Below, one piece after another: positions 328 to 8,098 of a stretch of 8,098 bases of DNA (positions are counted from its first letter, which is position 1; every line of letters starts with the position of its first letter). A program made the position numbers and the translations under genes. The notes beneath the pieces are model-generated. The model was not told the origin of the DNA and ran no database searches. It saw only the letters and a program-made list of their open reading frames with translations. The DNA is taken from positions 1 through 8,098 of the forward strand of contig JAFRMB010000128.1 in assembly GCA_017430945.1 (NCBI GenBank). The letters run 5' to 3'. This DNA is from Clostridia bacterium. Its GTDB lineage: Bacteria > Bacillota_A > Clostridia > Christensenellales > Aristaeellaceae.

Positions 328-407
328 CGCATCTCCCCGAGGCTCGGTGTGCGATCGCGAACCGACTGACTTTGGCGCGGGTCGAACACATTCTGACCAT
401 GACATAA

Positions 408-413
408 AGGAGG
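408..413 (+). promoter_or_regulatory. Shine-Dalgarno site AGGAGG that fixes the start at 422
   Basis: AGGAGG at 408-413, within AAAGGAGG, sits 8 nt before ATG 422. It selects this start over the in-frame ATG at 347, which has no ribosome binding site and would add 25 low-quality residues. Confidence 0.85.
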
Positions 414-421
414 AACGACGG

Positions 422-1102
422 ATGGCAAGCAAGACATTTGCCGGTGCGGTCGCGGAGCAGCTCTTCCAGTGGGAGTACACCTGTGAATTCTGCGGCAAGC
501 GCATCGAGAAGACCGGCAAGCTGACCGCCTCACACGGCTTTGGCCGCAACGTCAACACCCGGTGGAACGTGAACGCCGCATGGTCGCAGGAGATGATCGC
601 TCAAGCCGAGCGGAAGCTGGCAGAAATAAAGGCGCAAACAGAAAGCCTGTCGCAAAGCGGCCATTGGGCGCCTGCCGACGACGGTCGATGCCCGCATTGC
701 AGGAAATACCAGCACTGGTCGAAGGCGGCCAGGGAGGCGGTCGAGGCGGGATCGCCGAAGGAAAAGCAGGCCGGCAGACGGCGCTTTTCCCTTCGCGCCA
801 TAGGCGACATGCCCGCCTACTATCTCTTTGTGCTCTGCTTATGCATCGTGCTCTCGTGCCTGCTGATCTATCCGGCGATGGATATCTTTCAGGCAAAGCC
901 CGGCACGACTGCTGTCCTCCCGATCGCGATCGGGTGCCTGGTGATCGGCTTCGGGATCCCCATACTCATCGTCAAGCTGATCCACCGAAGCAAAAACCGC
1001 AGGAACGTCGAGATCCGCAGATCGCTGGACGGCGCACAGGAGACCATGCCGCGCTTTCTCTCCTGGGGCTTCCATCAGAGCTATGTGCAGGGTGTGAACT
1101 GA
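422..1102 (+). CDS. Two-CxxC (zinc-ribbon-like) membrane-hairpin protein of unknown function
   Basis: The 226-residue protein has three visible parts. The N-terminal half carries two cysteine pairs, CEFC at residues 21-24 and CPHC at 90-93. They flank a polar, probably helical insert (about 52-78) and could form a split zinc-binding knuckle. A strongly basic stretch follows (about 112-126, including GRRR). Two hydrophobic segments come next, at about 132-152 and 163-187, joined by a short loop. The C-terminus is basic (H-R-S-K-N-R-R) and polar. Basic residues before the first helix and after the second suggest both ends are cytoplasmic, with a membrane hairpin between them. No catalytic motif is visible. 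Anchoring of a cytoplasmic metal-binding domain is an inference from topology only. The start is set by AGGAGG at 408-413. No good promoter is visible in the 132-nt gap, so read-through from the upstream gene is possible. The gene converges on the kinase gene. Confidence 0.8.
   Translation: MASKTFAGAVAEQLFQWEYTCEFCGKRIEKTGKLTASHGFGRNVNTRWNVNAAWSQEMIAQAERKLAEIKAQTESLSQSGHWAPADDGRCPHCRKYQHWSKAAREAVEAGSPKEKQAGRRRFSLRAIGDMPAYYLFVLCLCIVLSCLLIYPAMDIFQAKPGTTAVLPIAIGCLVIGFGIPILIVKLIHRSKNRRNVEIRRSLDGAQETMPRFLSWGFHQSYVQGVN
919..934. repeat. 16-bp perfect palindrome inside the CxxC membrane protein gene
   Basis: CCCGATCGCGATCGGG reads identically on both strands and contains CGATCG and ATCGCGAT cores. 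It encodes P-I-A-I-G in the second membrane helix, so the coding sequence alone may explain it. A shorter relative, GCGATCGC, occurs at 351-358 in the upstream leader. It may be a methylation or binding motif, or chance in GC-rich DNA. Confidence 0.5.
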
Positions 1103-1137
1103 TAAAACGATGCCGCGCATCCATGGCGCGGCATCGT
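1103..1137 (-). terminator. Intrinsic terminator between convergent genes, oriented for the kinase gene
   Basis: A perfect 12-bp inverted repeat (ACGATGCCGCGC 1107-1118; GCGCGGCATCGT 1126-1137) encloses a 7-nt loop. AAAA at 1104-1107 becomes TTTT immediately after the hairpin when read on the minus strand, which fits a rho-independent terminator about 100 nt past the kinase stop codon. On the plus strand the hairpin begins 5 nt after the stop of the CxxC gene, but no T-run follows it. It may stop both convergent transcripts, more efficiently the minus one. Confidence 0.75.
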
Positions 1138-1154
1138 CGTATGATCTCTCGCTG

Positions 1155-1176
1155 AAAGCTCCTATAAAGCTCCTAT
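1155..1176. repeat. Tandem duplication of an 11-bp unit
   Basis: AAAGCTCCTAT occurs twice back to back (1155-1165 and 1166-1176) in the 136-nt space between the convergent stop codons. No spacer separates the copies. It looks like a small local duplication. No function is apparent and no other copy was seen in the window. Confidence 0.6.
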
Positions 1177-1238
1177 GTGGAAGGAAACCGGAAACATCAT
1201 CGTTGTCTGGACAAGGAACGGGAAACATCCATGGCCGA

Positions 1239-4064
1239 TCACTTCTTCCCCTCCGCCTGCATGAGCACCGCCGTCAACGTCTGAATCAGCTGTCCGACAT
1301 CGATCGGCTTGGCGATGTGCGCCTGCATGCCCGCGTCCATCGCGGCGCGTTCGTCTTCCTTGAAGGCATTCGCCGTCATGGCCAGGATCGGTATATCCGC
1401 AAGGGCCCTGTCCTTCAGCGCCCGGATGGCCCGCGTCGCCTCGTATCCGTCCATCACCGGCATCTGGATGTCCATGAGGATGGCGCTGTAGTAACCAGGC
1501 TCGGAGGCAGAGACCATATCCAGCGCGATCCTGCCGTTTTCCGCGGTCTCCACGACGAATCCGGCCTGCGTGAGGATCATGTTGGCGATCTCCATGTTGA
1601 TCATGTTGTCTTCGACCAGCAAAAGCCGCCTGCCGGAGAAGTCGATCCCCTTCCCGTCGTCCTTCCCGCTCTGGCCGTCTTTCATCTCCTGCTGATCGTT
1701 CGCCACATCCTTCTCTTCGGCGAGCTTCAGCTTCAGCCGGATGATGATGGTCGTGCCGGTCCCCGGCGCCGTTATCACTTCGATGGTCCCGCCCATCAGG
1801 TCGACGATGCTCTTGGTGATCGTCATGCCGAGCCCGGTCCCTTCCACGCCGCTGACCGTCGATGTGCGCTCCCGTTCAAAGGCGGTGAACATTTTATCGG
1901 CGAATTCCCTGGACATGCCGATCCCGCTGTCCTGCACCCGGATCTCATAGGAGCCGTAGCCGCTCTCCCCGCTGCCGGTCTCTGAAAGCGTCGCGATGAT
2001 CGTCCCGCCCTCCGGGGTAAACTTGTACGCGTTGCTCAGGATATTCAGCAGCACGCGATTCAGGTTTTTCCTGTCGCACCACACATAGCGGTCCTGTATC
2101 TGGCCCGTATGGACCTGGAAATCCATGCCCTTTTGGTCCATCTGTTCCGAAAACAGGTCGCGAATGCCGTCAAATACCGCCCGGAGGTCGACCGGCACGA
2201 ATTCCAGCTCGATCGTGCCGCTCTCGATGCGGCTCATTTCAAGGATGTCGTTGATCAGCGAAAGCAGGTGCTGGCTGGAGCGCCGGATCTTGTCGAGGTA
2301 TTCGTGGATCCGTCCGGCGTCTTCCTCCTTTCGGGCCAGATCCGTATAGCCGATGATGGCATTCATCGGGGTGCGGATGTCGTGCGACATGTTGAACAGG
2401 AACTGGCTCTTTGCCAGGCTGCTCTCCACCGCATGGATCTTCTCGCGCTCCACCGCTTCATGCTTCTCCCGAACGACATTCTGGACATACAGCATGACGG
2501 CGAGGCCGACGAATATGATCACCATCAGGATGATGCCGCCCCAGACGAGCGCCTGCTTCATCTGCTCGGCATCCTCCCCGGCGTAGAGCAGCTTTGCCAG
2601 CCACATCAGCGCGGAATAGACCAGCAGGGCAAACAGCGCGACGCCGGAGGTGGACATCCCGCTGTACTCGGTGAGCGTGCTCTTGACGACCGTCCGCCAA
2701 TAGAATACGAATCCGAGCAGACACCACAGCGACAGAAGCAGGAAGGCTTCGCTGCCCATCGCTTCCATGGCCGCCAGCCGCGGGATGATCTGCACGATGA
2801 GGAGTATCACAGATATGATCGCGCCGATCATCCCGGTCACGGTCGCCTTCCGATCTCCCTCTGCCCGGGCGATCCTGTACGCCGCCGCCGAAGAGTAGCC
2901 GAACCCGACGATCGCGCCGAAAGACGTCAGATCGACGAACCAGACCAGCGTGTTCCTGCCGAGCAGAGAGAGCAGTATGGACAGGAGCATGATGAACACG
3001 ATGCTGTAGGTGGTTTTGGAAAACTTCTCAGACAGGATGCGATCTTCCGCCATGGTGGACAGCACGCGCGTCGCCGCGCGGTAACCGCCGATGATGCCGG
3101 TAAGTATGGCGGCGACTGCCGTGGCCGTCATGATGACGAGGCCGACAGGACCCATGATGGATCTGGCGACATAGAACGTCGGCACGGACACCAGCCCCAC
3201 CGATCTGTCCAGCTCCCCGATATACGCCTGCCAGGTCGGGAAGCCATCCGGCACAGAGGCGACGCTGATGAGCGTCATCGATATATAGGCGAACGTCGCC
3301 GCAAGTATGGAGATGACGATGACGATCCCCGTCCGCTTGATCGGGAATCGAAAGTGCGCCGTGTCGAACGCCGTGACCTCGAAGCCCACGAATGCCCACG
3401 GCGCCATGATGACCAGGCTGAACACAGCGTATCCCCTGTTCAGCCCCCGGATGCCGAAGGAGCGCAGCGCGCCGCTTCCGATGGCGTGCGGCAGACAGAA
3501 TATGGTGGTGATGACGATCCCGATGAACAGGATGATCGCCAGGATCGTATGCAGGCGCTGCAGCATCGGCTTGGCCCACACGAACAGGACCCCCACGGAC
3601 GCCAGCACCAGCACGGAAACCAGCGTCTCACCCAGGTATATGGTATTGCCCGCAACGGTATAGTGAAAGCCGCTTTGCGCGACGTCGGCGAACAGCGTCC
3701 GCACGATGAAAAACAGCGCCGTGCCGTTCAAAAACACGATGGTCAGGTACGACAGACATAAAAACCATGAACTCAGGAACGCGTGGTCCCGGCCAAACGC
3801 CTCCTTGGTATAGGTATATACGCCGCCCGTCATGGCAGAGCGCCCCATCAGGTAAGAAAAGTTACTTCCGATGATCAGCATGATCACCATGCCCAACAGC
3901 ATGGAGATCGCGGTCCCGGCTGGACCGGCGACGGGCAGGAACGTCGTTCCCGGCATGGCGAACACGCCCCAGCCGACCATGCAGCCGAAGGCCATCGCCC
4001 ATACATCCACGGTGGACAGGTATCGATCCAGCGGTTTTACCGCTCCCTTGCTCCGGTTTTCCAT
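1239..4064 (-). CDS. APC-family permease fused to a hybrid histidine kinase with receiver domain (putative transceptor)
   Basis: This 941-residue protein joins transport and signalling modules. Residues about 15-460 resemble an APC-superfamily amino acid permease with about 12 helices. Helix 1 carries GWGVFAMPG (31-39) and helix 6 carries PWAFVGFE (222-229), both typical of the family. Two more helices (about 471-495 and 505-528) lead into a charged linker or coiled coil (531-552). The kinase core follows: H-box FNMSHDIRTP with phospho-acceptor His561, N-box NILSNAYKF (674-682), G1 DSGIGM (712-717) and G2 GTGLGM (742-747). After an acidic/basic linker comes a receiver domain (about 812-935) with acidic pocket E818/D819, phospho-acceptor Asp865 (MDIQMP), Thr897 and Lys919. 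By family knowledge it should autophosphorylate at His and pass phosphate to Asp. Ligand sensing by the permease part is inference. There is no HPt or output domain. Whether the permease still transports is unknown, as is its substrate. The start at 4064 is set by AAGGAG at 4078-4073; an upstream ATG at 4277 lacks support. Confidence 0.93.
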   Translation of the reverse strand: MENRSKGAVKPLDRYLSTVDVWAMAFGCMVGWGVFAMPGTTFLPVAGPAGTAISMLLGMVIMLIIGSNFSYLMGRSAMTGGVYTYTKEAFGRDHAFLSSWFLCLSYLTIVFLNGTALFFIVRTLFADVAQSGFHYTVAGNTIYLGETLVSVLVLASVGVLFVWAKPMLQRLHTILAIILFIGIVITTIFCLPHAIGSGALRSFGIRGLNRGYAVFSLVIMAPWAFVGFEVTAFDTAHFRFPIKRTGIVIVISILAATFAYISMTLISVASVPDGFPTWQAYIGELDRSVGLVSVPTFYVARSIMGPVGLVIMTATAVAAILTGIIGGYRAATRVLSTMAEDRILSEKFSKTTYSIVFIMLLSILLSLLGRNTLVWFVDLTSFGAIVGFGYSSAAAYRIARAEGDRKATVTGMIGAIISVILLIVQIIPRLAAMEAMGSEAFLLLSLWCLLGFVFYWRTVVKSTLTEYSGMSTSGVALFALLVYSALMWLAKLLYAGEDAEQMKQALVWGGIILMVIIFVGLAVMLYVQNVVREKHEAVEREKIHAVESSLAKSQFLFNMSHDIRTPMNAIIGYTDLARKEEDAGRIHEYLDKIRRSSQHLLSLINDILEMSRIESGTIELEFVPVDLRAVFDGIRDLFSEQMDQKGMDFQVHTGQIQDRYVWCDRKNLNRVLLNILSNAYKFTPEGGTIIATLSETGSGESGYGSYEIRVQDSGIGMSREFADKMFTAFERERTSTVSGVEGTGLGMTITKSIVDLMGGTIEVITAPGTGTTIIIRLKLKLAEEKDVANDQQEMKDGQSGKDDGKGIDFSGRRLLLVEDNMINMEIANMILTQAGFVVETAENGRIALDMVSASEPGYYSAILMDIQMPVMDGYEATRAIRALKDRALADIPILAMTANAFKEDERAAMDAGMQAHIAKPIDVGQLIQTLTAVLMQAEGKK

Positions 4065-4072
4065 GTCCCGTG

Positions 4073-4078
4073 CTCCTT
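4073..4078 (-). promoter_or_regulatory. Shine-Dalgarno site AAGGAG that fixes the kinase start at 4064
   Basis: Read on the minus strand, AGAAGGAGCA lies directly upstream, with AAGGAG ending 8 nt before ATG 4064-4062. This start places the protein just before the first permease helix. The longest frame would begin at 4277 and add 71 residues with no membrane or domain character, reading through the promoter at 4173-4204. Confidence 0.85.
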
Positions 4079-4172
4079 CTGATCCGACCGGTTCCATACT
4101 CAGGGATCGAACGGGCCTTGCAAGCGGGCCGAATAGACCCTGCCGGCCTGTCGCTCCCCAGTGATGCACAAT

Positions 4173-4204
4173 ATTATAATAGCACAACGCACCGACGAAT
4201 TCCA
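4173..4204 (-). promoter_or_regulatory. Extended -10 sigma-A-type promoter for the permease-kinase gene
   Basis: On the minus strand, TGC (4184-4182) directly precedes TATTAT (4181-4176), an extended -10 element. An overlapping perfect TATAAT lies at 4178-4173. A weak -35 candidate, TGGAAT (4204-4199), sits 17 nt upstream of TATTAT and matches TTGACA at three of six positions; the extended -10 may compensate. This is a distinct AT-rich patch in GC-rich surroundings. Transcription from here would give a leader of roughly 100 nt before the ATG. Confidence 0.65.
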
Positions 4205-4344
4205 GTGCCGAAGCAGATTCTTTTTCAATTGACCGCCGATCGGGTGCCCGCGTTCGATCCATGATCGCATCGCGCATTTTCGTCCGGCCTGCCGGAACCC
4301 CGAAGGTCTGTGATCCGTCAAAAGAGTTGACTCATCATGTGTAC

Positions 4345-4350
4345 AGGAGG
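4345..4350 (+). promoter_or_regulatory. Shine-Dalgarno site AGGAGG for the large secreted protein
   Basis: AGGAGG at 4345-4350 is 8 nt before ATG 4359, which begins a clear signal peptide. A nearer ATG at 4352 is only 1 nt from the site and in another frame, so 4359 is the start. Confidence 0.88.
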
Positions 4351-4358
4351 CATGGATC

Positions 4359-7300
4359 ATGAAGAAGCTGGCGGCCGCGATGCTTGCGGCCATACTCTGC
4401 CTGGTGCTTTCGTGGGCGCTGGCCGAATCCTCGCCGGTCGTGCGCAGCGGCGTGCTGTCCGCTTACACAGACGGCGAGGGCCACATACGGCTGCCCGGGC
4501 ACGACCGGCCCGTCAACCGTGCGGCGGCGGATCGCCTCATCTCCATCGACGCCTATCGCCTGTTGTTCACTTCTCCGGGCGCGGACGGCGCCAGCGACCT
4601 CTATATGATCGATCTCGGCAGCTTTGAAGAGCGCCTGCTGGCTGAGGGCGTGCACACGGCGTGCATGGCCGACGAGTCCGTGCTGTACTATGTGACCGAA
4701 GAGGATCGCAGCATGCTCTGGCGCATGACGCTGCCGGACGGGGAAGCCGAGCTGGCCTACGCCACCTTCGAACCCATCGACCGGCTGTATCGATCCGCCG
4801 AGGGGCTCGTATTTGAGCTGGTGGACCAGGCGGGCGACATGGTGTACGTCAGCCAGACCGACCGCTTCGAAAACTACATGGGCACGCTGCCCGTCAAGGG
4901 GCTGCTGACTGAAGACAGCGAGCTTTATCTTTCCAGGAGCGGCGACCTCTTCATCAAGAGCATCGCGAGCGTTGCCGCAGATCACATCGACTCAGACGTT
5001 CTGTCCTTTTGCATGCTCGACGGCAGGGTCTACTACCTGTGTCACGCTTCCAGCGCCGTGCGTCTTAAGGTCTATGATCCAAATGACATGAGCTGGCGCG
5101 TGGTGCTGACGCTGGACGGTACTTTGGAAAACCAGCTGGCCGCGACCGAGAGCGCGCTGTTCATGCTGGACACGAGCGGGCAGGTCTATCGCCTGCACGA
5201 GCCGAGCGGTACGCTGGCGCCGTTTCGTAGCTTTGCGGATCTGGACCGCTACGATCTGCCCGAAGGCTTCGATGTGTCCAGACTGCGCATCGAGGGCATG
5301 AGCGGCCAGCTGAACGTATACGCGGAACTCACCGAGCGCGCCGCGACACCCGATTTCAGCTTCATCGAATTCACTTCCACATCCGACAGTCTGGAGCCGA
5401 CGCTCCGTTTGCTGGAAGGCATCCCCATCGACGGCGAGGCCGCCGCATGGGAAAGCCTGAAGCCTGCGCCGCAGTATGCCACGCTCATGTGGGGCAGCCG
5501 AGGGGACGCTGTGCGCGCCATCCAGCAGCCCCTTTACGATCTGGGCTATTACGATTACTATGTTGACGGCATCTTCGGCCCGCGCACCCACCGCGCCGTT
5601 CAGCTCCTGCAGGACGATCTGGGCCGCGTGCCCAACGGCGTCGCTGACCCGGACCTCCAGCGCATCATCCTCCAGGGCGGGCTTTCGCAGTATGACCCCT
5701 ACCGCGCGCTCAAGCGCGGGAGCCGCGGTCTGCGCGTTCAGGCGATGCAGGAGCGGCTGCGCGACCTGGGCTATCTCGCAGATCATGCCGACGGCATATT
5801 CGGCGCCAATACCCAGCGGGCCATACAGCTCTTCCAATCGGAAAACGGCCTTCAGACGTCAGACAGCGCCACGCGTGAGACGCTCAGGTGCTTATTCTCG
5901 TCAAGAGCGCGGTCCTGCACGCGGCTCATCGACCTGTACCCAGGCAATACCGGTTACCGTGTGCGCCAGCTGAACAATCGCCTGCGGGATCTGTACTATC
6001 TGGAGGCCGATGCCGGTAGCACCTACACCCCTGAGACCGCCGAAGCCGTGCGCCGCTTCCAGTCGCAGATGGGCTTCACGCAGAACGGATGTGCCTCCGT
6101 GCCCGTGCTGCGCGCGCTCTATGCGTCCGGCGCGCCTGAAGCATCAGGCTACATCCTGTTGCGCAGAGGCGACCGCAACGACCGCGTGTTGGCCATGCAG
6201 ATGCGCCTCAAGCAGCTGGGTTACTACAGCGGCGCGCTGGACGGCTACTTCGGCCGCGTCACCGAAAAGGCCGTTGCGCTGTTCCAGAAGAAGGTCGGTC
6301 TCGATCCGAGCGGCATCGCCACCGTGCGCACGCAGGAGCTGCTGTTCGCTGCCGACGCACCCATTTACGTGAAACCGACGGTCATCGGCAAGCCCGTCAT
6401 CACCGTGGACAGCTACCACCACCGCGAGAACGGCATCTACTGCATCTCCGACGACAGCACGCTGACCGGCTACGTCACGTTCACATGGAGCGCCGAGGGC
6501 GAGGTGAAGTCGTACAATGTCACGATCACCGATCCGAATGGCGCGGAAGTGCTCGATCAGGACACCCTGCTCACCCGCACCGGCGTTTCACTGTCGACGC
6601 TTAAGATCGACCGCACCTACGAGCTGACCATCACAGCCTACCCGGAGGACGGCAATAAAAAGCATGTCACCCGTGCCTCCGTCAGCTTCCGGCACATCGA
6701 ACAGCAGCCCGATCCTGGCCCGGCCGAGGTCGGCGAGCCGGAGATCGAGCTGGACAAGACCGTCCGAAGGCAGAACAGCGTGTGCTACATGCAGCCCGGC
6801 TACATCACCTTCCACTGGTCCGCCTCGGGCGATGTCGACAGCTACTACATCGACATCCAGAACGCCGCCGGAGCGACACAGCTCAGCGTGCGCACATCTG
6901 ACACCCGCGCCAGTTTGCGCACCGAGAACCTGAAAGTCGGCGAGGTCTACACGATCCACGTGTTCGCCATCCCGGCCCGCGGCACACTTGACGATGCGAG
7001 GCACAGCTTCCAGCGCTTTGCCCTGGAGGACGTCTCCCTGCCCACGCCCACGCCGACGCCCAAGCCCTCTCCGACGCCGACGCCGGACGTCACATTCACC
7101 CCCGAACCCTCCTCGACCGCCCCTGCCGATGCGGACCAGGCATCCTCTCAGGACGACGGATCCGACGATGCCGGATCCCAGTCGGACGGCGATCACGATG
7201 GCAATGATATCGCCGGCACCGTGCCCGACATTCCCGCTCCCGGCGGCGATGCCGGGACGGATGACGACGGCGATGCGCAGCAAGTTCCACCGGCCATGCT

Positions 7301-8098
7301 GTTCGCGGCACCGGAAGATACGCCCGGTGAGCTTCAGCTTTCATTTGATACTGTGGTCGGCCATGACGGTGAGGTATCGCTGTTGTCAGATGACGCCGTG
7401 ACCCTCAAATGGCAGTCTGACAGGGCAGCCGCCGGCTATGAAGTCGAGGTGCTCGACTCCTCCGGCAGGACCATGGCCTTCGGCACGACCGAGCGTACCG
7501 AATTGCATGTCGACCCCAACAAAATGGTGGCGGGCGAGGTCTACACGCTGAATGTCACGGCCATCCCGACCGATGGCACGTCCGAAGACGGCCTGAACGC
7601 CAGTGCGCAGTTTGCCCTGTATGTTCCGAGTGTCGACGATCCCGGGTCCGCGCCTGCCGACACCGCTGGCGATGGATCGGATGGGAGCGGCGATCCGGCG
7701 TCCGGCGCTTACGGCGGAACGGATGACATCCCTGATGCCGCATACGACGGTGAGCCGGACGACGACCAGTACGACACGGTCGACGAGGGACCCGGACCCT
7801 ACGAGGAGCCTGAACCCTACGAGGAACCTGAACCCTACGAGGAACCTGAACCCTACGAGGAGCCCGAACCCTACGAGGAGCCTGAACCCTACGATGAGCC
7901 TGAACCCTACGAGGAGCCTGAACCCTACGAGGAGCCTGAACCCTACGAGGAACCTGAACCCTACGAGGAACCTGAACCCTACGAGGAGCCTGAACCCTAC
8001 GAGGAACCTGAACCCTACGAGGAGCCTGAACCCTACGAGGAACCTGAACCTTACGAGGAACCTGAACCCTACGAGGAACCTGAACCCTACGAGGAACC
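4359..8098 (+). CDS. Large secreted multidomain peptidoglycan-binding protein with Fn3/Ig-like domains and hexapeptide repeat tail (3' end outside window)
   Basis: The frame is open without a stop from ATG 4359 to the window end, giving at least 1246 residues. Residues 1-22 form a signal peptide (MKKLAAAM, hydrophobic core, cleavage likely after ALA22). No lipobox cysteine fits. Residues about 25-355 contain roughly six strand-rich repeats of the type 'ESVLYYV...LWRMTL', suggesting a beta-propeller. Four PG_binding_1-type repeats follow at about 376-437, 451-515, 525-588 and 599-664; copies 1, 2 and 4 keep DGxFG then a helix ending in LQ/FQ, while copy 3 has lost DGxFG. Three beta-sandwich, Fn3/Ig-like domains lie at about 678-781, 795-890 and 989-1090, each with a W-centred strand and 'tYeLtItA'-like strand. 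A Thr-Pro linker (895-909) and Asp/Gly-rich linkers separate them. From 1147 the sequence is P-Y-E-E-P-E repeats. It is probably wall-associated and structural or adhesive; no hydrolase domain is visible. Anchor or catalytic domains could lie beyond the edge. Confidence 0.92.
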   Translation, partial: MKKLAAAMLAAILCLVLSWALAESSPVVRSGVLSAYTDGEGHIRLPGHDRPVNRAAADRLISIDAYRLLFTSPGADGASDLYMIDLGSFEERLLAEGVHTACMADESVLYYVTEEDRSMLWRMTLPDGEAELAYATFEPIDRLYRSAEGLVFELVDQAGDMVYVSQTDRFENYMGTLPVKGLLTEDSELYLSRSGDLFIKSIASVAADHIDSDVLSFCMLDGRVYYLCHASSAVRLKVYDPNDMSWRVVLTLDGTLENQLAATESALFMLDTSGQVYRLHEPSGTLAPFRSFADLDRYDLPEGFDVSRLRIEGMSGQLNVYAELTERAATPDFSFIEFTSTSDSLEPTLRLLEGIPIDGEAAAWESLKPAPQYATLMWGSRGDAVRAIQQPLYDLGYYDYYVDGIFGPRTHRAVQLLQDDLGRVPNGVADPDLQRIILQGGLSQYDPYRALKRGSRGLRVQAMQERLRDLGYLADHADGIFGANTQRAIQLFQSENGLQTSDSATRETLRCLFSSRARSCTRLIDLYPGNTGYRVRQLNNRLRDLYYLEADAGSTYTPETAEAVRRFQSQMGFTQNGCASVPVLRALYASGAPEASGYILLRRGDRNDRVLAMQMRLKQLGYYSGALDGYFGRVTEKAVALFQKKVGLDPSGIATVRTQELLFAADAPIYVKPTVIGKPVITVDSYHHRENGIYCISDDSTLTGYVTFTWSAEGEVKSYNVTITDPNGAEVLDQDTLLTRTGVSLSTLKIDRTYELTITAYPEDGNKKHVTRASVSFRHIEQQPDPGPAEVGEPEIELDKTVRRQNSVCYMQPGYITFHWSASGDVDSYYIDIQNAAGATQLSVRTSDTRASLRTENLKVGEVYTIHVFAIPARGTLDDARHSFQRFALEDVSLPTPTPTPKPSPTPTPDVTFTPEPSSTAPADADQASSQDDGSDDAGSQSDGDHDGNDIAGTVPDIPAPGGDAGTDDDGDAQQVPPAMLFAAPEDTPGELQLSFDTVVGHDGEVSLLSDDAVTLKWQSDRAAAGYEVEVLDSSGRTMAFGTTERTELHVDPNKMVAGEVYTLNVTAIPTDGTSEDGLNASAQFALYVPSVDDPGSAPADTAGDGSDGSGDPASGAYGGTDDIPDAAYDGEPDDDQYDTVDEGPGPYEEPEPYEEPEPYEEPEPYEEPEPYEEPEPYDEPEPYEEPEPYEEPEPYEEPEPYEEPEPYEEPEPYEEPEPYEEPEPYEEPEPYEEPEPYEEPEPYEE
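7797..8098 (+). repeat. 18-bp in-frame minisatellite encoding P-Y-E-E-P-E repeats
   Basis: Sixteen complete 18-bp units and 14 nt of a seventeenth run to the window edge. The consensus is CCCTACGAGGARCCTGAA. Variation is almost wholly synonymous: the second Glu codon is GAG or GAA, one unit has CCC for the second Pro codon (7863-7865), and one has CCT for the first (8049-8051). The only amino acid change is Glu to Asp (GAT) in the unit at 7887. Each unit carries three acidic residues, two prolines and one tyrosine, predicting an extended, strongly negative stalk. The unit length is a multiple of three, so copy-number change would alter length without a frameshift. Confidence 0.97.

Follow-up and report, generated by a model that had tools for sequence, protein, structure and literature searches.

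In the literature found, as far as titles and abstracts state it, fusions of a transporter to a histidine kinase are of the SLC5 or the Amt type. CbrA of Pseudomonas, CrbS and RpuS carry an SLC5 transporter part linked to the kinase through STAC, with an additional PAS domain in CbrA, and CrbS is a hybrid kinase by description; Ks-Amt5, the ammonium sensor histidine kinase of Kuenenia, joins a trimeric Amt fold to DHp and CA domains only, has no receiver, and is reported to act as a sensor that has lost transport (PMC13022988, PMC11109136, PMC7096432 and, for Ks-Amt5, PMC5764959; accessible parts of these papers). The protein described here likewise joins a transporter-type domain to a histidine kinase within a single polypeptide, and like CrbS it is a hybrid kinase. 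It differs in transporter family and probably in linker: its permease is of the APC type with a G-W-G motif, and in the model two extra helices run into its kinase. The APC transporters AdiC, CAT1 and the bacterial CAT homologue of 5oqt/6f34, which we take to be GkApcT, lack signalling domains, unlike this protein. APC-type proteins also act in amino acid sensing, as in LysP-CadC and yeast Ssy1/Gap1, and we know of no fused kinase or c-di-GMP enzyme in these. A full-text literature search, weighted towards journals outside subscription and resting on titles and the opening of abstracts, returned no description of an APC-histidine kinase or APC-GGDEF protein, nor of the APC-HK-REC architecture as such. 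An earlier note on this DNA had guessed at a poorly described transceptor class, which fits this result.

The gene lies on the reverse strand of the window, the whole 8,098-nucleotide stretch of DNA analysed, and is confirmed to encode a membrane protein with an amino-acid-transporter-shaped front half and a signalling-kinase back half. Its features are as follows.

1239..4064, reverse strand: coding sequence, 941 aa, in the order APC permease, TM13/TM14, HisKA, HATPase_c, receiver (domain scan and model)
4073..4080, reverse strand: Shine-Dalgarno-like AGAAGGAG, 8 nt 5' of the ATG at 4064 (by eye, unscored)
2655..4034, reverse strand: APC (LeuT-fold) permease domain, residues 11-470
3966..3974, reverse strand: G31-W32-G33, the TM1 helix break and hallmark of the GWG APC branch (alignment and model)
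3378..3401, reverse strand: TM6 motif PWAFVGFE, residues 222-229 (alignment of 52)
2415..2651, reverse strand: two extra helices, residues 472-550, read as putative TM13 and TM14 (AlphaFold2 secondary structure; predicted membrane placement)
2217..2414, reverse strand: HisKA (DHp), phospho-acceptor H561 (Pfam)
1725..2075, reverse strand: HATPase_c, the CA domain (Pfam)
1275..1622, reverse strand: receiver domain, phospho-acceptor D865 (Pfam)

No promoter-like site was found at 900-4500 of the window. Six terminator-like sites were found there against 1.9 expected; five of these lie inside the gene, and they were therefore left out of use.

The earlier note had read this frame as an APC permease, a hybrid kinase and a receiver in one chain, and every computable point (fold, domains, residues) bears this out. 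Pfam returned AA_permease as well as AA_permease_2, the latter at 50.6 bits against a cut-off of 27 over residues 16-428. The profile search thus recovered the APC fold in the N-terminal part, and the AlphaFold2 model contains the LeuT-type fold with a TM1 broken at residues 31-32. Pfam gave no SSF (SLC5) or PAS match in the protein. The back half carries the H box, the N, G1 and G2 boxes, and a receiver with acceptor Asp and Lys, as expected of a hybrid histidine kinase. Among 52 aligned full-length proteins with 54-80% identity to the window protein, H561, the N and G box residues, and receiver residues E818, D819, D865, T897 and K919 are each present in 52/52. Judged from its sequence, the protein falls outside the SLC5 kinases and is classed both as an APC protein and as a hybrid kinase.

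The APC-HK-REC architecture is genuine and occurs widely. When 5.8 billion proteins were searched, 1153 of the 7998 candidates scored were relatives at E ≤ 1e-3, and all four domain types were present in 120/120 of the matches listed. A scan of GTDB genomes gave 112 confirmed stretches, the best 80 of which were kept and correspond to 78 loci, mostly in metagenome-assembled Bacillota genomes from rumen and gut. A few are labelled Coriobacteriaceae, Victivallales or Lentisphaeria, or Chloroflexi, and two records lack a metagenome-assembled or uncultured label. A sequencing fusion or assembly chimera of two genes is ruled out by these relatives in the protein database and in GTDB genomes. Counting the known centre genomes, the permease domain was found in 25/299 genomes sampled from the family of G001 (E ≤ 1e-50), in 17/394 from the order of G008 (query P0203, E ≤ 1e-80) and in 8/391 from the class of G008 (query P0204, E ≤ 1e-60).

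By alignment, the permease is assigned to a distinct APC branch marked by a Trp at the TM1 break. W32 occurs in 52/52 and G33 in 51/52 of the aligned window-type proteins. TM1 G31-W32, TM3 N113 and TM10 W375 are each kept in 52/52, as are W223 and G227 of TM6, and residue 229 is Glu in 41/52 and Asp in 11/52. Of 128 distinct frames of relatives from fetched loci, five were unreadable; the TM1 Trp is present in 122 of the 123 others (121 GWG and one GWS; the exception is GFG). The string GWG near the N-terminus was counted in 120/120, 108/120 and 120/120 of the matches listed in three protein searches. Because all these proteins were chosen by similarity and are relatives by selection, a control on APCs outside the branch was needed. 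Such APCs in seven of the same genomes (six in total, five readable) have GAG, GVG, GSA, ATS and GSG, and Trp in 0/5. Profile alignments place GTG in 5oqt and GAG in CAT1 at this position, and the motif of AdiC is GSG. In ordinary APCs the residue at the Trp position helps to hold the alpha-carboxylate; the small middle residue expected of an ordinary alpha-amino-acid APC transporter is absent here, with Trp instead. A distant stand-alone APC (L196, G018:C49:65575-66879), which scores 270 bits against the A2 profile, also has GWG in TM1, and the branch may extend beyond the proteins sampled.

Other site residues bear on whether the permease still transports. A Lys in TM5 has a proton-coupling role in ApcT-type proteins, and no conserved Lys was seen at 173-190 of TM5. 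In TM6, Q233, E236 and E237 are at 100% in 19 short stand-alone rows and mostly replaced in window-type rows, which fits a lost or changed transport cycle and proves nothing. GGDEF-type sensors retain E236 in 78% and E237 in 94% (n=18), so the TM6 change does not track sensing as such. This retention would suit a working transporter whose kinase reports flux, that is, a permease that still imports its solute and a kinase that monitors the transport cycle, a mode of action proposed for CbrA; so would the core site positions that the fused forms share with their stand-alone relatives (TM1 GWG, N113, W223 and G227). CbrA of P. putida imports L-histidine with or without its kinase part (PMC7096432, accessible part), whereas Ks-Amt5 represents the opposite outcome, with transport lost and sensing kept (PMC5764959, accessible part). 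With the TM6 replacements also on the opposing side, we regard a flux-reporting transporter as possible but doubtful; a sensor role for the protein is likely.

The connection between permease and kinase is helical in the AlphaFold2 model. In the Pfam library scanned, residues 430-550, the linker region in which a STAC domain would be sought, have no match, and the model ends there in one long helix. The second extra helix is continuous at 499-579 and reaches into the DHp domain of the kinase, with block pLDDT values of 59-75 at residues 531-560 and of 59-64 at 541-560, within the helix proposed for coupling; pLDDT falls below 50 at 1-10, 428-435, 728-742 and 789-806. In 11 of the 78 loci (L067-L076 and L078) only about residues 477-939 are matched and the permease is absent. 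These loci encode TM-HK-REC kinases of about 490 aa with 48-52% identity to the window protein over about residues 503-937, as if the input domain had been swapped ahead of TM14.

Beyond the first reading, the permease domain is modular and serves several outputs, and its relatives often have c-di-GMP neighbours. The permease part alone, searched against 20 genomes with window-type genes, found 35 places, 21 of them window-type. Domains were called by local BLAST on the 128 distinct frames, drawn from those places and other fetched loci. They comprise 77 APC-HK-REC proteins and one cut, 5 APC-HK-REC-REC, 3 APC-HK and 3 cut, one APC-REC, 10 APC-GGDEF, and 5 APC-GGDEF-REC-degenerate GGDEF-EAL and one cut. 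A further 20, and 2 cut, were permease only by BLAST; Pfam identifies two of these as HD-GYP fusions, and some of the rest are broken pieces. Examples of each main output kind were verified by Pfam. The GGDEF motif adjoining the permease is intact in 16/16 frames listed; HD[IL]GK, HHE and GYP are found in both HD proteins. An APC-HK-REC protein of 1780 aa (L168:1466-6805, forward strand) has no Pfam match in its last ~800 residues, and one APC-GGDEF protein (L170:4120-7707, reverse strand) has a PAS_4 domain between permease and GGDEF domain.

A quick maximum-likelihood tree was built from 100 permease domains, one in three of the close window-type rows being kept. Short stand-alone permeases (~450-510 residues) lie at its base and 69/69 fused rows fall in one clade of 76 (SH-aLRT 99); the search was short and without bootstrap, the outgroup and some sensors sit on long branches, and the root split is weak (34). 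The output labels require 16 changes across the tree, the broken piece L013 being scored as stand-alone. This topology suggests a single conversion of one transporter kind into a sensor, which was later combined with several signalling parts, including c-di-GMP enzymes. The APC-GGDEF protein P0178 splits off at the base of the window-type group, as a separate fusion. Stand-alone proteins of ~554 residues, six of them in the tree, look like later kinase losses because they are nested inside the kinase-fused clade. These and similar proteins (P0160, P0162, P0184, P0204, P0206 and P0234) extend past TM14 into a charged tail and have no kinase. Stand-alone permeases, fused sensors and seeming kinase-loss forms thus stand on one tree, and a class in which kinase and c-di-GMP outputs share one sensor domain would offer natural material for asking how a transporter becomes a receptor. 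The fusion might instead merely place the kinase at the membrane, with a non-sensory permease and a signal that enters via the cytosolic part. The existence of permease-less sister kinases would suit this explanation, but the site positions are strongly conserved and the same permease is found on unrelated outputs (HK, GGDEF and HD-GYP), kept through the label changes on the tree; we consider it very unlikely.

The neighbourhoods of window-type genes were counted in 64 loci of varying flank length, which remain from the 78 after removal of the 11 kinase-only loci (67) and of L064-L066, which hold small permease fragments or none. Within 6 kb, an Hpt gene is present in 16/64, an EAL gene in 22/64 and both in 14/64. 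Any HK, Hpt or EAL gene is found in 43/64; L013 and L051 enter this count solely through the remainder of the broken sensor gene itself. Same-strand HK or REC genes no more than 150 nt away occur in 37/64, at least three of them (L005, L013 and L051) being such remainders, and in 22/64 the gene so placed encodes an HK-REC-REC kinase. Among the 40 loci with at least 5 kb upstream, 14 have Hpt, 17 EAL and 31 any of the three kinds. No HK, Hpt or EAL gene occurs within 6 kb in 21/64 loci, 8 of which have flanks of 5 kb or more on each side, and in the 8 kb of the window Hpt, EAL and additional kinase genes are all absent. In Ruminococcus-type loci the gene order is REC-GGDEF-EAL, Hpt, (PAS-HK-REC-REC), APC-HK-REC. 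The REC-degenerate GGDEF-EAL neighbours have the three EAL motifs searched and the receiver Asp motif in 21/21 listed, and the first GGDEF is degenerate in 21/21; AHxLKG is present in 14/16 Hpt proteins. In Ruminococcus flavefaciens ATCC 19208 the REC-GGDEF-EAL frame (L037:3852-5375, forward strand) is shorter than those of its relatives and stops inside the EAL domain. Hybrid kinases with an SBP_bac_3-like domain are encoded at L008:10572-13844 (by Pfam) and by the kinase gene alongside in L011, L014, L021, L032 and L077 (by BLAST), placing a solute-binding sensor near the permease sensor.

For the permease-less sister kinases, an Hpt or EAL gene was found in 0/11 loci, 9 with at least 3 kb upstream and 2 with short flanks. 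This contrast is support and not proof, because the comparison has only 11 loci and those counted are related to each other, many coming from rumen metagenome assemblies. The neighbourhood of the window-type sensors thereby lends support to a c-di-GMP output. The receiver might otherwise be a phosphate sink or feed a transcription regulator elsewhere, with an output mainly other than c-di-GMP. The window, which has no linked output gene, and the 42/64 loci with no EAL gene within 6 kb would agree with this. However, EAL genes occur in 22/64 window-type against 0/11 sister-kinase loci and the permease domain is fused directly to c-di-GMP enzymes, so we think this alternative rather improbable.

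We therefore favour, with reasonable confidence, a membrane nutrient sensor, a transceptor-type hybrid histidine kinase with output via Hpt to REC-EAL. Its observed base consists of the domains and fold, the intact catalytic residues, the conserved candidate site residues, the neighbourhoods of relatives, the fusions to c-di-GMP enzymes and the tree. A small solute would bind the central site of the APC-fold domain, and a shift between transporter-like conformations would move TM13 and TM14. TM14, as one helix into DHp, would so set autophosphorylation at H561. The phosphate would then pass to the protein's own receiver at D865, to a separate Hpt protein and to the REC-EAL c-di-GMP phosphodiesterase, a route that may in part be common to neighbouring HK-REC-REC kinases. 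The window copy would use partners encoded elsewhere; ligand binding, coupling, the order of phosphotransfer and the direction of the response are proposed steps. An APC-type class would give rumen bacteria a membrane-level route from nutrients to c-di-GMP.

Clues to the ligand were sought in flanking genes. Among 129 non-signalling frames within 2.5 kb of window-type sensors (48/62 loci; two of the frames are permease pieces), the top Pfam family, Dockerin_1, occurs only 3 times. With no shared family, these frames give no ligand clue, which counts against a simple ligand idea. Stand-alone relatives (~28-40% identity to the window protein) were examined at 13 loci (L122-L130, L139 and L165-L167), of which 6 adjoin phosphonate, choline or sulfonate genes. 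L122 has a sulfopropanediol dehydratase (1543 bits against a cut-off of 1000), its activase (571 against 500), TauE and an Fe-ADH; a reading of these neighbours as taurine/isethionate genes was wrong, as NCBIfam names sulfopropanediol. L129 has phosphonate biosynthesis genes (PEP mutase, 414 against 320; AEP aminotransferase, 464 against 361; nucleotidyltransferase), L128 (scanned as L081) a choline kinase and nucleotidyltransferases, and L126 a TauE-like gene (by BLAST to that of L122), a class III aminotransferase and an Fe-ADH. L124 has an HTH-nucleotidyltransferase, and L125 a similar gene by BLAST cluster only. The GWG-APCs of L122 and L129 are candidate transporters of sulfopropanediol- or phosphonate-related compounds. 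The other 7/13 loci have no such genes in what was scanned, L165 being unscanned: L166 has a MurT and a GATase_3 gene, L167 a GATase_3 gene, L130 an amidohydrolase and an M24 peptidase, L123 an FMN oxidoreductase and L127 an aconitase, and in L139 the one neighbour scanned had no match.

The 6/13 stand-alone neighbourhoods and the loss of the small TM1 residue weakly suggest ligands other than alpha-amino acids, the idea staying weak because 7/13 loci show no such genes in what was scanned, identity of these relatives to the window protein is only ~28-40%, and the 129 frames near window-type genes have no family in common. A bolder reading, which we offer tentatively and rate as unlikely, derives the GWG-APC domain by a single recruitment from stand-alone permeases that carried small polar compounds (C2-C3) other than alpha-amino acids. 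Candidates would be 2-aminoethylphosphonate, sulfonates, and choline or ethanolamine. In rumen and gut anaerobes the domain would then have become a nutrient sensor that plugs into different outputs, successively histidine kinases, diguanylate cyclases, and EAL and HD-GYP phosphodiesterases, and the window protein would report head-group compounds, such as those that rumen protozoa release, to c-di-GMP.

Two other frames flank the gene in the window. A 251-aa frame at 347-1102 (forward strand) has two CxxC pairs (zinc-ribbon-like) and two hydrophobic stretches, and had no match in Pfam or NCBIfam. The divergent neighbour at 4359-8096 (forward strand, open at the window end) encodes a protein that is probably secreted, in which four PG_binding_1 and two fn3 stretches are accompanied by a long tail of EEPEPY repeats.
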